37,235 bases of DNA from Oscillospiraceae bacterium (GTDB lineage: Bacteria; Bacillota; Clostridia; Oscillospirales; Ruminococcaceae): assembly GCA_016291435.1 (NCBI GenBank), contig JAEEXH010000021.1:1-37235 (forward strand), read 5' to 3'. The notes below the pieces were generated by a model. It did not search any database, was not told where the DNA came from, and was given only the letters and a program-made list of their open reading frames with translations. The stretch's first letter is position 1, and every line of letters begins with the position of its first letter. A program made the position numbers and the translations under genes. Positions 394 through 36,532 of the stretch are shown one piece after another.

Positions 394-454
394 AAAAGTA
401 TAATTTTTGTATGAAGCGCGGGTGACCGCATGGGGATATATCGGGAGAGGGACT

Positions 455-10166: not shown

Positions 10167-10195
10167 TTGCATTTTTTTCAGAGATATGCTATAAT
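10167..10195 (+). promoter_or_regulatory. Sigma-A promoter of the thiamine operon
   Basis: TTGCAT (10167-10172), 17 bases, TATAAT (10190-10195). Start near 10201, exactly where the riboswitch begins. Confidence 0.88.
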
Positions 10196-10200
10196 AGAAT

Positions 10201-10299
10201 CACAAGGGGAGCTTGTATACAGGCTGAGAGGAAGGCGATTGAGCCTTCGACCCATAACCTGATTTGGATAATGCCAACGTAGGGACATATGCCTTTGTG
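10201..10299 (+). promoter_or_regulatory. TPP (THI-box) riboswitch aptamer
   Basis: The conserved THI-box elements appear in order: GGGGAGC (10206-10212), CTGAGAG (10224-10230), ACCC (10250-10253), then ACCTGATTTGGATAATGCC and the AACGTAGGGA end (to about 10285). CACAA at 10201-10205 can pair with TTGTG at 10295-10299 as a P1-like helix. In this class TPP binding turns off the downstream genes. The aptamer is followed directly by a terminator and by eight thiamine genes, which agrees with transcriptional control. Confidence 0.96.
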
Positions 10300-10302
10300 C
10301 GC

Positions 10303-10340
10303 AAAGGGAGCTGCTATGTTTGGCGGCTCCCTTTTTATTT
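10303..10340 (+). terminator. Riboswitch-controlled terminator
   Basis: AAAGGGAGC (10303-10311) pairs with GCTCCCTTT (10326-10334), extended inward by a T-G wobble and two G-C pairs, followed by TTTTTATTTT. It lies between aptamer and thiS. An alternative 6-bp hairpin, CCTTTG (10292-10297) with CAAAGG (10302-10307) around TGCG, uses the same bases as its 5' arm and can act as antiterminator. Confidence 0.92.
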
Positions 10341-19743: not shown

Positions 19744-20466
19744 TCAGTTTTCCTCCACTGTAAATTCCGCTGCGGTGCTCGGCTGATCCATGCAGGAGAT
19801 GCGGTAGCTGCCGGCCGGCAGGGGGCTCTGCATCTGATACTGCGAGAGCCGGAGTGTGATGCGGATGCTTTCCCCGGCAGCGATCGTGTATGCGCTTGCG
19901 GCGGCGCTGCTCTCATCGGCGGGCGCGGGCATGATCGCCATTCCGCTGCCGTCCGGGTCAGTATACTCAATGCAGAATGTGTCTGATCCGACGATAACCG
20001 GCTCCACATTCGGGTTTGTGACAAGCAGCACGATCTCTGCGGTATCGGCTGTGACCGGTTCAGCAAGCTCCAGCGTGAGCGGCAGAAGCTCGTCGTTCAG
20101 ACCGTCTGCACCGCCGGTCAGGGTATTGGCAGGAGCGGTTGCGGCTTTGTTGTCCGCGCCGTTGTATCCTTCCTTTGCCATGTCTTTGTCAATTGTCGGC
20201 GGGTCTCCAAGGATTGCATCCTCTGCGCCTTGAACACACTCGGCGCCGTCGCTCAGGCTGTCACCGGTATATGATCCCAGTGTTGTGTTTTCGAGTTTGA
20301 CTGCGGACTTCGGTGTCTGCATTTTCCAGATTCCGAATGCGCCGAAGCAGAGGCAGAGCGTCAGCATGCCTGCCGTGGCCTGCTTTACGCGGGTGCGCTG
20401 CTTTTGCTGATATACTTTGCTGCGGCGGAGCACCTCCGCCTCGAAGGCTTCATTTGATTGTCTCAT
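19744..20466 (-). CDS. Putative anti-sigma factor with extracytoplasmic Ig-like domain
   Basis: A 240-residue single-pass membrane protein: a short basic cytoplasmic part (1-30), a membrane helix (about 31-48), a low-complexity stretch and a C-terminal beta-rich domain (about 125-238). It starts directly after the sigma factor stop codon, the usual place for an anti-sigma gene, and AAAGGAGGAG lies in the sigma gene end. No zinc-binding HxxxCxxC anti-sigma motif is present and the cytoplasmic part is very short, so the role is inferred from position and topology. The outer domain resembles the product of the next gene. Confidence 0.65.
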   Translation of the reverse strand: MRQSNEAFEAEVLRRSKVYQQKQRTRVKQATAGMLTLCLCFGAFGIWKMQTPKSAVKLENTTLGSYTGDSLSDGAECVQGAEDAILGDPPTIDKDMAKEGYNGADNKAATAPANTLTGGADGLNDELLPLTLELAEPVTADTAEIVLLVTNPNVEPVIVGSDTFCIEYTDPDGSGMAIMPAPADESSAAASAYTIAAGESIRITLRLSQYQMQSPLPAGSYRISCMDQPSTAAEFTVEEN

Positions 20467-21006
20467 TCAGATCTCCTCCTTTGATAAGAGGTCTCTCAGG
20501 GCTGCTTTTGCGCGGTAGAGCAGGTTATCGACCTGCTTTGCGCTTTTCTTCATGATGCGTGCAGTATCCGCATAGGAACGCTCCTCGAAGTAGACAAGGT
20601 GCACAGCAATCTGCTGATCCTCGGGCAGCCTGTCAATGGCCGCGTGCAGGCGCCGGTGTTCCTCCTTGCGCAGAACATGCTCCTCGAGATCTGTCTCATC
20701 ACGGAGCAGCTCTGCTTCGTCGATCGGCACAGTCTGATGCCGTTTCTTATGCCGGAGCCAGTCAAGGGCTCTGCTCCGCGCAACCATAAACAGATAGGTG
20801 CGCAGGGAGGATTTGAAATTATAGCGGTGCGGGTGAACGATCAGATCCATGAAGACATCGGCTGCAATATCCTCCGCAGCACAGATGTCATGCACATATC
20901 GCTGAATAAAGAATGTGACCGGATCGCGGTATTCCGAAAGTATTTCTGAGAATGCCGCCTTGTCGCCGTTGAGATAGCGCCGGTAGCTGCATGCGTCCTG
21001 TTCCAT
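20467..21006 (-). CDS. ECF-type RNA polymerase sigma-70 factor
   Basis: A 179-residue extracytoplasmic-function sigma factor. Region 2 (about 20-95) includes AEDIAADVFMDLIVHP and SSLRTYLFMVARSRALDWLRHKKR; region 4 (about 115-175) includes IDRLPEDQQIAVHLVYFEERSYADTARIMKKS and VDNLLYRAKAALRDLL, a helix-turn-helix for the -35 element. AAGGAG is 7 bases before ATG21006. It heads an operon with the anti-sigma-like gene, an Ig-like protein and two serpins. No sigma-A-like promoter is visible upstream, in contrast to nearly all other units here, which fits autoregulation. Confidence 0.93.
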   Translation of the reverse strand: MEQDACSYRRYLNGDKAAFSEILSEYRDPVTFFIQRYVHDICAAEDIAADVFMDLIVHPHRYNFKSSLRTYLFMVARSRALDWLRHKKRHQTVPIDEAELLRDETDLEEHVLRKEEHRRLHAAIDRLPEDQQIAVHLVYFEERSYADTARIMKKSAKQVDNLLYRAKAALRDLLSKEEI

Positions 21007-21030: not shown

Positions 21031-21045
21031 TGAAAGCTGCTTTCA
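21031..21045. repeat. Perfect inverted repeat in the leader of the ECF sigma gene
   Basis: TGAAAGC and GCTTTCA flank a single central base, 25 bases before the sigma-factor start. It may be an operator or an mRNA hairpin near the ribosome site. A TGAAAC element, similar to ECF -35 boxes, lies 12 bases further upstream (minus strand, 21062-21057), but no matching -10 is clear. Confidence 0.5.
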
Positions 21046-21158
21046 TTAGGGTATACGTTTCAGCGGGTGAATTTCCTTATGATTTCCAAAACATTGTGAA
21101 AACTATACAAATCAAGAAAACATGTTATGGAATATATGTAGAAAAACTTTGGATTCTA

Positions 21159-21187
21159 TTGCAATTTATTCCAATTTGTGTTACAAT
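21159..21187 (+). promoter_or_regulatory. Sigma-A promoter of a candidate small RNA
   Basis: TTGCAA (21159-21164), 17 bases, TACAAT (21182-21187). No plus-strand gene follows; a terminator lies about 80 bases downstream. Confidence 0.7.
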
Positions 21188-21193
21188 ACGAAT

Positions 21194-21276
21194 GAACATG
21201 AATTCAAACCCTCTCCAATTGAATTCATAAACCCTCTCTATTCGAGCCGTCCTGTTTCAGGGCGGTTTTCTTTTTA
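21194..21276 (+). ncRNA. Candidate anti-Shine-Dalgarno small RNA of about 83 nt
   Basis: A free-standing unit of promoter plus intrinsic terminator in a region where both flanking genes are on the other strand. ATGAATTCAA (21198-21207) and TTGAATTCAT (21219-21228) are exact reverse complements, giving a 10-bp hairpin whose 11-base loop holds CCCTCTCC. A second CCCTCTC (21232-21238) lies in the single-stranded linker. The terminator stem is CCGTCCTG (21247-21254) with CAGGGCGG (21258-21265), then TTTTCTTTTT. The CU motifs are complementary to Shine-Dalgarno-like sequences, as in csRNA-type regulators. Ends are estimates; I know of no named family that it matches. Confidence 0.55.
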
Positions 21277-21309
21277 TTATAGCACAGCCGTGTGCGGAAC
21301 GCAATATCC

Positions 21310-21348
21310 GTATAAAAAGAAAATCGCCGGACAGCAGAGCTATCCGGC
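21310..21348 (-). terminator. Terminator of the phosphofructokinase gene
   Basis: On the minus strand GCCGGATAGC (21348-21339) pairs with GCTGTCCGGC (21335-21326), one T-G wobble, a 3-base loop, followed by GATTTTCTTTTTAT. Confidence 0.88.
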
Positions 21349-21394
21349 ACAGAAAGGAAAGAGGTTACCATATGAAAATAAGTGGTAAGCAGGT

Positions 21395-22606
21395 TCAGAA
21401 ACGGAAATGCTTTGGCATTCCGTTCTCCATTACAGGCAGCACTTCACCCTGAATGAGCGGCAGGAAATAGCTGATCGCTTCATCGGAGATCTGGTTGCCT
21501 GCGGGAGTGATCCACGCCTTCGGGAAGGTGCGGATGTAGTTTGCAGCGTCTTTTGCTGCCATATCGGAAAAGGTGATGCGGTATTCCGCGGAATTGTCAT
21601 CGCGCTGCATGGTCACCATTCTGCCGGTGAGACCCTGCGCCGCGAGGGTAACTGCATGTCTGCCGCACGCCGCTGCTTCGGTGAGATCCGTCGCGGAGGC
21701 GAGGTGAGAGGAGCAGCGCTGCATGACATTCAGCTCAACCGAGCGAACCTTGCAGCCGATTTCACTGCGCACCTGATTTTCGAGATATTTGCCGATACCG
21801 GAGAGATAGGCGTGCCCGTAGGCATCGCTGACGCCGGATCGGAAGAGGTCTGCGTCCGGGGGCGTCACACCCTCAGAAACTGCGCAGATCACACTTTTAT
21901 GCGTTTTCATAGCCTCGCGCACATCATTGAGGAAGCCTTCGACGGTGAATTCACCCTCCGGCAGGTAGATAAGCTGCGGAGCAGTCTCGCCGTTTGCGCG
22001 GAGAAGGCAGGAAGAAGCGGTGAGCCAACCTGCGTCTCGCCCCATGATCTCACAGATCAGCACGGAGGGGACACAGTAGACAGCGCTGTCGCGGATAATC
22101 TCGGAAAGCGTCATCGTCAGATACTTGACAGCGGAGCCGAAGCCCGGTGTATGATCTGTGCCGGTGAGGTCGTTGTCGATTGTCTTCGGCACACCGATCA
22201 CTCTGATCGGGCTGTTCTGCTCTGCGAGCCAGCCGCTGAGCTTTGCGACGGTATCCATGGAATCGTTGCCGCCGATATAAAGGAATGCGTCGATCCCATG
22301 CTTTTCAAGAATCGCACGGACTTTTTTGTAGATTGAATCATCCTGCTGCGGATCCGGGAGACGGAACCGGCAGGAGCCGAGCGCAGTTGCCGGGGTGCGG
22401 CAGAGAAGCGCACGGTTATCTGCATCTGAGAGTGACTTGTCAAGGTCTATGAACTGCTCGTCAAGCAATCCCTGTATGCCGTGCAGTACGCCGAGAATCT
22501 CCGTATGCGTATGGCTTCTGAGCTCGCAGGCGGCTTCATAGACACCGACGAGGGAAGCATTGATCGCACAGGTAGGACCGCCGGACTGGGCAACGGCAAA
22601 ACGCAT
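21395..22606 (-). CDS. pfp: Phosphofructokinase, probably pyrophosphate-dependent
   Basis: A 403-residue PfkA-superfamily enzyme of glycolysis. The N-terminus has AVAQSGGPTCAIN. The donor-determining positions are GGNDS (112-116, D115 where ATP enzymes have G) and PKTIDND (140-146, K141 where ATP enzymes have G), the pattern of diphosphate-fructose-6-phosphate 1-phosphotransferases; D144 is the catalytic base. N114 in place of the usual D of GGDDS is a small deviation. MGRDAGWLTA is also typical. AAAGGAG precedes ATG22606. Single-gene unit, divergent from the AraC-type gene. Assignment of PPi as donor rests on these residues only. Confidence 0.88.
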   Translation of the reverse strand: MRFAVAQSGGPTCAINASLVGVYEAACELRSHTHTEILGVLHGIQGLLDEQFIDLDKSLSDADNRALLCRTPATALGSCRFRLPDPQQDDSIYKKVRAILEKHGIDAFLYIGGNDSMDTVAKLSGWLAEQNSPIRVIGVPKTIDNDLTGTDHTPGFGSAVKYLTMTLSEIIRDSAVYCVPSVLICEIMGRDAGWLTASSCLLRANGETAPQLIYLPEGEFTVEGFLNDVREAMKTHKSVICAVSEGVTPPDADLFRSGVSDAYGHAYLSGIGKYLENQVRSEIGCKVRSVELNVMQRCSSHLASATDLTEAAACGRHAVTLAAQGLTGRMVTMQRDDNSAEYRITFSDMAAKDAANYIRTFPKAWITPAGNQISDEAISYFLPLIQGEVLPVMENGMPKHFRF

Positions 22607-36485: not shown

Positions 36486-36532
36486 AATAATCCCCTCTCG
36501 TAACATGTTCGGCGCGTCCGCCGTATAATTAC

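Follow-up and report, generated by a model that had tools for sequence, protein, structure and literature searches.

Comparative evidence for a small RNA family in Ruminococcus whose CU-rich motifs match the ribosome sites of cellulase genes

Ruminococcus is a main cellulose degrader of the rumen and gut, and little is known of how its cellulases are controlled. The stretch of DNA analysed here (37,235 nucleotides, hereafter the window) contains a plus-strand promoter followed closely by an intrinsic terminator, and both flanking genes, which encode an ECF sigma factor (20467-21006) and a phosphofructokinase (21395-22606), lie on the minus strand, as the initial annotation had stated. The annotation read this arrangement as a small RNA presenting two CU-rich anti-Shine-Dalgarno (anti-SD) motifs. 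The locus raises the question of whether it belongs to a conserved regulatory RNA and which genes such an RNA would control. We found the observation itself to be right and beyond chance.

The promoter (TTGCAA-17-TACAAT, 21159-21187) and the terminator stem (21244-21268) are both present, and so are the perfect 10-bp hairpin (21198-21207 with 21219-21228) and the two CU motifs described for it, CCCTCTCC in the loop and CCCTCTC in the linker. The features of the candidate, which we term sRNA-1, are given below in the coordinates of the window.

21159-21164, plus strand: -35 hexamer TTGCAA, ungapped up to the -10 hexamer in the 21 aligned family members
21182-21187, plus strand: -10 hexamer TACAAT (TATAAT in most relatives, in the context TGcTATAAT)
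21194-21274, plus strand: predicted sRNA-1 transcript of about 80 nt, its 5' end placed from the -10 hexamer and its 3' end from the terminator
21198-21207, plus strand: 5' arm of the 10-bp hairpin, from the fold and from covariation in relatives
21209-21216, plus strand: CU motif 1, CCCTCTCC, in the hairpin loop
21219-21228, plus strand: 3' arm of the 10-bp hairpin, from the fold and from covariation in relatives
21231-21238, plus strand: CU motif 2, ACCCTCTC, in the single-stranded linker (CCCTCTC at 21232-21238)
21244-21268, plus strand: intrinsic terminator stem-loop, of the ACCGTCC..GGGCGGT type in most relatives

The terminator stem is followed by TCTTTTTATT. The promoter matches the consensus at 9 of 12 positions, carries TG ahead of the second hexamer and looks like a sigma-A promoter. 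A 6-kb scan gave 11 promoter-like sites compared to 4.3 in shuffled sequences and 8 terminator-like sites compared to 6.2; neither the promoter nor the terminator of sRNA-1 thus stands out by itself, and the case rests on conservation. For the predicted RNA (21194-21276) the folding energy is -24.2 kcal/mol, compared to -11.1 kcal/mol (sd 2.55) for shuffled sequences (z = -5.1), and none of 200 shuffles folds as well. The claim that no open reading frame lies here holds for the transcript and not for the DNA: a mechanically called ORF of 88 aa (21122-21388, plus strand) spans the site but begins ahead of the promoter, and no closed ATG ORF of more than 10 codons is contained in the transcript predicted for any of the 21 family members. 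On these grounds sRNA-1 is best read as non-coding, and a small-ORF reading was rejected.

A BLAST search with 151 bases across the genus gave clear relatives in a few genomes. We ran a covariance model built from four sequences (R1) over 30 genomes of the genus (Ruminococcus), which gave matches in 26 of them at E values up to 1, and after reading these matches we accepted members on the promoter, the CU hairpin and the terminator. This places sRNA-1 in 21 of the 30 genomes (G000, which is the genome of the window, G002, G003, G004, G006, G007, G008, G009, G010, G013, G014, G015, G016, G019, G021, G023, G025, G026, G027, G028 and G029), with no acceptable match in the remaining nine. The R1 scores of the members lie between 93.9 and 24.8 bits, and all but two of the 21 have E <= 5.1e-5; the weak ones, G008 (25.8 bits) and G023 (24.8 bits), were accepted on promoter, hairpin and sigma neighbour, and G008 scores 49 bits with model R2, which was trained on G008. 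The models were built without the MAFFT alignments A1, A3 and A4, in which loop or linker was misplaced. The searches run gave one sRNA-1-type copy per genome. The covariance search in relatives, by which the annotation had proposed to check the RNA, supports it, the hairpin and at least one exact CCCTCTC being kept in the 21 members. Matches within the genus that were judged false on reading are L059, L068, L069 and weak ones in G001, G005, G018, G020 and G022. As a separate observation, in locus L062 (G001:C44), from a genome without sRNA-1, a gene end precedes CCCCCTCTC..ACCCTCTT and a strong terminator, an arrangement that may be chance (E 0.175).

Next to the conserved motifs, the hairpin stem varies. 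Among the 21 members, 17 distinct 5' arms surround the same loop motif; the stem is GAATTC-like in some genomes and reads CCTGAACCG, CAAGCGCC, CGGGAGC, GGGATCCGG or CGGCCCCGG elsewhere. Alignment A6 (20 distinct rows), whose fitting to the structure inflates covariation counts, has 30 cells changed on both sides (9.9 in shuffles) and gives a covariation score of 0.319 (0.157 in shuffles), neither value being reached in any of 500 shuffles. Unlike these measures, the count of pairs showing such a double change (6, all within the 7-pair hairpin) is reached by 97 of the 500 shuffles. Sliding the partner by 1-3 columns lowers the proportion of paired cells in A6 from 92.2% to 32-58%. An exact CCCTCTC is found in the linker of 19 members, in the loop of 16 and at least once in each of the 21 RNAs, a retention that partly reflects how the members were found, since R1 and R2 include the CU motifs; the stem changes, unlike the motif retention, are no product of the search models. 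Across the family, the predicted promoter, terminator and CU motifs are kept and the predicted hairpin stem is rewritten with compensatory changes. Collectively, the comparison supports sRNA-1 as a conserved small RNA family with two putatively exposed CU anti-SD motifs.

Searches reaching beyond the accepted members gave no further convincing one among the loci read. R2 gave matches at E <= 0.05 in 79 of 317 genomes of the family, with top scores in G000 (73 bits), G010 (62 bits) and G008 (49 bits) and a best score of 36.6 bits among the others; none of the 17 loci outside the genus that were read carries both a CU loop and a linker motif, and what they hold is plain terminators, gene ends, tRNAs and coding sequence. 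When 297 family genomes were searched with an exact pattern, nine matched, eight of them outside the genus, where the matches look like chance by their letters (one, L032, was read). A pattern scan of a named genome collection returned 28 stretches, of which 11 are from Ruminococcus, Oscillospiraceae or Clostridia bacterium; among the other 17, the two that were read (L070 and L082) have no such hairpin and the rest were judged chance by their titles. A multi-copy CCCTCT(T/C)TCCTTACCCTCTC element, read in four loci (L338, L339, L346 and L351), looks unrelated.

The locus offers a further constant, the divergent sigma factor gene. The features on that side of sRNA-1 are as follows.

20467-21006, minus strand: ECF sigma factor gene, divergent partner of sRNA-1 (Sigma70_r2, Sigma70_r4_2)
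19744-20466, minus strand: candidate anti-sigma factor gene that follows the sigma gene (a single hydrophobic stretch seen by eye; no Pfam hit)
21054-21080, minus strand: ECF-type promoter-like pair ATAAGGA-N16-CGTA upstream of the sigma gene, from the alignment
21093-21112, no strand: imperfect dyad ATTGTGAAAACTATACAAAT (TTYGT..ACAAA), possible regulator site
21137-21143, plus strand: TGTAGAA, possible regulator site 15 nt above the -35 hexamer, ungapped in the 21 aligned members

The pair ATAAGGA-N16-CGTA is presumably an ECF promoter, judged by the general ECF consensus. The intergenic region between sRNA-1 and the sigma gene is conserved in blocks in the 21 aligned members, and the dyad appears in relatives in such versions as TTTGTGAGAACTCACAAA and TTCGTCATTATGCACAAA. 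The sigma gene is divergent to sRNA-1 at 21 of 21 loci, its product being 60-82% identical to the protein of the window, and the nine genomes without sRNA-1 hold no close ortholog (best match at most 41%, three genomes without a match at E 1e-8). With a pairing at every locus and no close ortholog in the nine, the RNA and the sigma gene co-occur. The conserved upstream region and the lock to the divergent ECF sigma gene suggest that sRNA-1 synthesis answers a signal linked to this locus. Separately, an inverted repeat TGAAAGC-T-GCTTTCA lies just above the sigma gene start (21031-21045) and recurs in most of the 21 aligned genomes; it is a candidate operator or mRNA hairpin.

Which genes would the CU motifs meet? 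Both complementary sites named in the initial annotation are real.

36492-36499, minus strand: predicted target, the GAGAGGGG ribosome site of the GH9-CBM3 cellulase gene (read from 36499 to 36492)
443-451, plus strand: possible target, the GGGAGAGGG ribosome site of the Reg_prop/HD-GYP gene

As background we used a 390-kb sample of G000 together with the window, in which our own script called 305 genes with a ribosome site, their starts included. GAGAGGG serves as the ribosome site of 1 of the 276 called genes outside the window and of 2 of the 29 inside it (the GH9 and HD-GYP genes), and canonical AGGAGG sites precede 36 of the 305. Across G000, GAGAGGG followed by ATG (N3-12) occurs at 51 places, two of which are the minus strand of sRNA-1 itself, compared to 21 for the reversed pattern. 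The corresponding counts for GAGAGGG-N4-10-ATG are 23 compared to 14 in G016, 31 compared to 12 in G010 and 23 compared to 21 in G002, so that by count there is no excess in G002; many of these places fall inside genes. The ORFs that follow and have at least 60 aa or are open-ended number 83, of which 42 were picked by eye and 39 scanned against Pfam. GH48, GH9, GH5 or dockerin domains were found in 18 of the 39 scanned site-bearing genes of the four genomes (4 of 12 in G000, namely GH48 and three GH9; 4 of 8 in G002; 4 of 9 in G010; 6 of 10 in G016), a share that is favoured by leaving out the MSQKL protein as probably mobile and constrained by overlap. This multi-copy family (MSQKLxVPHPRKKIDxTTLIV; L143, L164, L168, L173, L190 and L209) has GAGAGGGGCGAGAAG before its start, overlaps the preceding reading frame and is probably mobile. 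Further site-bearing genes with secreted-looking N-termini encode a BNR protein, which by resemblance we take to be GH74, a DUF5620 protein, and LRR and LTD proteins; for a pilin-like protein, 12 bases are predicted to pair with the sRNA-1 linker. A MalK-type ABC ATPase and a GGDEF protein of G000 bear the site as well. Separately, a phosphofructokinase gene of G016 (L200, G016:C46) has a GAGAGGGG ribosome site; in the window such a gene adjoins sRNA-1 instead.

GH48 provides the strictest test of the site. The gene is present in 28 of the 30 genus genomes, and in all 28 GAGAGGGG lies 8-10 bases before the ATG (Fisher p ~1e-38 against the 276 background genes, the orthologs not being independent). 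The GH48 leader, ACGAGAGGGGAAAAAAGAATG, is near letter-identical across the genus and is also kept in the nine genomes without sRNA-1, which is the chief objection to sRNA-1 as the reader of this site. We note separately that the leader ACGAGAGGGGAAAAAAGAATGCAATTCAAGAA (L247 and 27 other loci) is near invariant beyond the need of a ribosome site alone. The GH9 genes of G000 bear the site in 3 of 8 cases (Fisher p = 6e-5; 2 of 7 without the gene of the window, p = 0.0016), and since the leaders of these genes differ outside it (for example TTTTTGAGAGGGGGAATTTCAAATG and TTACGAGAGGGGATTATTATG), the 8-mer is what they share. The other five GH9 genes have different ribosome sites, three of which, GGGAGGG, could pair with one G-U. 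Predicted duplexes of sRNA-1 with six GAGAGGGG leaders of G000 have energies of -14.3 to -14.5 kcal/mol, compared to a background median of -7.9 kcal/mol, and the energy of the GH48 leader is matched by 4 of the 305 background genes, the GH9 and HD-GYP genes of the window among them. The eighth base of GAGAGGGG is left unpaired by the usual A before the CCCUCUC of sRNA-1.

The longest exact match to sRNA-1 in the window belongs to the HD-GYP gene (GGAGAGGG). BLAST of the first 501 residues of its product against the site-bearing ORFs from G002, G010 and G016 gave no partner, and no HD-GYP or Reg_prop domain was found in 27 scanned ORFs of these genomes (first 120-500 residues). With the N-terminal part thus lacking a partner in three relatives, a conserved cyclic-di-GMP link is unsupported, and in G000 this gene may be an additional target. 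The annotation had suggested that the RNA might tie signalling to cellulase expression: its HD-GYP partner is not conserved in the three relatives, and the cellulase half of the proposal is well supported by the GH48 and GH9 sites and by the GH5 and dockerin genes of relatives.

A second CU-rich RNA, RNA-2, was first seen through a weak R2 match in G012 and a search for CCCTCT-N5-30-ACCCTCTC. It is 161-217 nt long as predicted and shows, in order, a TATAAT box, a hairpin with CCCUCU in its loop, the linker ACCCUCUC, a hairpin with AUGCCGGUACACAU (in G024 an A replaces the first C) and a terminator. Its copy in the genome of the window is the following.

L344:515-675 (G000:C73), minus strand: RNA-2 in G000

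We found RNA-2 in 11 genomes, eight that also carry sRNA-1 (G000, G003, G010, G014, G023, G026, G028 and G029) and three of the nine that do not (G012, G020 and G024). The linker is identical in all 11, which follows from the search pattern: all members but one were found by a pattern demanding ACCCTCTC, so that motif retention in RNA-2 wholly reflects the search. In the consensus fold, 9 of 21 predicted pairs show compensatory changes, seven in the GGUACAC hairpin and two in the terminator; the CU hairpin is missing from this consensus because the alignment is poor there, and it rests on single-sequence folds. Six RNA-2 loci gave no Rfam match. A homologous gene lies on the other strand within 1.6 kb upstream at 5 of the 7 longer RNA-2 loci, being by eye the nearest gene in three, and its G023 copy reads, again by eye, like a LacI-type sensor. 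The loop of RNA-2 is able to pair with AGAGGGG and so also takes in the final G, which sRNA-1 leaves free. To judge from sequence, RNA-2 is an unrelated predicted RNA of the same paired CU design as sRNA-1. Neither RNA was found in G001, G005, G011, G017, G018 and G022, RNA-2 having been sought by one exact pattern. Elsewhere, loci L372 (G014:C25) and L373 (G028:C567) show at about 300-345 two CU motifs (CCCTCTCTTATTATTACCCTCTC) and a terminator-like repeat after the end of a dockerin-like gene, possibly a third CU RNA from the 3' UTR of a cellulosome mRNA, or chance.

Building on what the sequences hold (the RNA family, its covariation, the motif conservation, the shared ribosome site and the genomic pairing with the sigma gene), we think it likely that sRNA-1 is a trans-acting RNA that pairs with cellulase ribosome sites and lowers cellulase synthesis. 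Under this hypothesis, sRNA-1 would have a sigma-A type promoter and a terminator to itself, and CCCUCUC, presented once in a closed loop and again in the open linker, would give it two landing sites for GAGAGGG. In the cell, each could pair over 7-8 bases with the GAGAGGG(G) of GH48, several GH9, GH5 and dockerin genes, and a duplex about 7-11 bases before the start codon would keep the 30S subunit off. We infer repression as the expected sign, because such pairing blocks initiation in LhrC, where it was shown, and in the csRNAs, where it was proposed; when sRNA-1 is made in answer to its presumed signal, cellulase synthesis would thus go down.

The closest rival is a broad anti-SD RNA that pairs weakly with many purine-rich sites, the cellulases merely keeping a strong and unusual site for efficient translation. 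It would account for the GH48 genes that keep GAGAGGGG in the six genomes where neither RNA was found, for the one-G-U pairing of GGGAGGG sites and for unrelated site-bearing genes (TetR, radical SAM, M16 peptidase, Mob and Rce1-like). However, the exact 7-mer is rare (the 1 in 276 given above) and concentrated in unrelated cellulase families, and the common AGGAGG shares only the GAGG core with the complement of CCCUCUC, and the median background duplex is -7.9 kcal/mol; we hold this alternative to be unlikely, though a serious one.

Much less probable is that the RNA acts in cis, as leader or attenuator for the gene downstream. That gene is by reading Orn/Lys/Arg decarboxylase-like and on the same strand at 12 of 21 loci, but in G000 it is the phosphofructokinase gene on the other strand, and neither gene was found within the other eight loci, some of which end at a contig end. 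The distance to the decarboxylase-like gene varies, the terminator is the stable fold in single-sequence predictions, and the fixed partner is the divergent sigma gene at all 21 loci, so that we rejected the leader reading. We likewise give hardly any credence to a functional minus-strand transcript, a GGA-containing RNA titrating a CsrA-like protein: the minus strand does show GGAGAGGG in the loop, and a GGA between loop and linker in 16 of 21 members, but this GGA is missing from the other five (G003, G004, G019, G021 and G029), CCCTCTC is kept in all 21, and it is on the plus strand that the promoter and terminator are conserved.

Taken together, the best reading is a cellulase regulon that bears its ribosome site as a mark and whose translation is blocked by CU-rich RNAs. 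With its exposed stretches matching cellulase ribosome sites, sRNA-1 probably adjusts the digestion of plant fibre by acting on protein synthesis. We put at about even chances the wider proposal that GAGAGGGG is a regulon-wide translational operator read by at least two unrelated RNAs, sRNA-1 at the ECF sigma locus and RNA-2 beside a LacI-like gene in several genomes; if so, different signals could each raise or lower GH48, GH9 and GH5 synthesis jointly, with no transcription factor in common. If true, small RNAs acting on one common ribosome site would account for the joint control of unlinked cellulase genes and offer a handle on fibre digestion, and the enzyme regulon would be defined by its SD sequence and not by a DNA operator.

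How does sRNA-1 compare with known systems? At the Rfam 15 gathering score the whole window gave only four tRNAs and a TPP riboswitch, and nothing at sRNA-1; the riboswitch lies at 10195-10304 on the plus strand (59.2 bits) and the tRNA genes within 1-314 on the plus strand, at the left end of the window. A lax scan returned LhrC (RF00616) at 20.6 bits (E 0.95), far below the gathering threshold of 110, as the only small RNA family among the weak matches overlapping sRNA-1 on its strand. A partial literature search found no small RNA for cellulases in Ruminococcus or other cellulosome bacteria. Control of the Clostridium cellulolyticum cellulosome is, like that proposed here, post-transcriptional, and concerns the cellulosome subunits; it works by selective RNA processing and stabilisation (PMC4423207), and neither a trans-acting RNA nor a common ribosome site is indicated in the available part of that report.

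The csRNAs of streptococci, which belong to the CiaRH regulon, are described in the available part of the source as short intergenic RNAs of 87-151 nt with stretches complementary to ribosome sites, whose pairing is proposed to block initiation (PMC8186281). sRNA-1 shares such stretches and the intrinsic terminator. Its length of about 80 nt, with both ends predicted, comes close to that range. It differs in its one copy per genome in the searches run and in its 21 aligned upstream regions, where by eye no TTTAAG-N5-TTTAAG CiaR repeat occurs. LhrC1-5 of Listeria monocytogenes, as far as the available text describes them, have a stem-loop A with a CU motif, a single-stranded CU stretch and a terminator; the redundant CU motifs pair with the SD region and block initiation, and expression depends on LisRK (PMC4132741). 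sRNA-1 repeats this order: the hairpin loop holds CCCTCTCC, and the linker ahead of the terminator holds CCCTCTC. Unlike LhrC, it uses CCCUCUC rather than UCCC, lacks a third CU motif in its terminator loop, which reads TTT, occurs once per genome in the same searches, has an ECF sigma gene as its neighbour and has cellulases as predicted targets. The resemblance to csRNAs and LhrC that the annotation drew therefore extends to layout and not to membership, and sRNA-1 was rejected as an LhrC, csRNA or other Rfam member by score or missing features. It has the general marks of a trans-encoded anti-SD RNA, namely its own predicted promoter and terminator, a predicted non-coding transcript and a conserved unpaired motif complementary to the ribosome sites of unlinked genes. 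By analogy, sRNA-1 would work like LhrC mechanistically without being a member by score and features, and what is new is the putative RNA family itself, its pairing with an ECF sigma gene, a cellulase regulon that its ribosome site apparently marks, and the fit of two unrelated RNAs to this mark.
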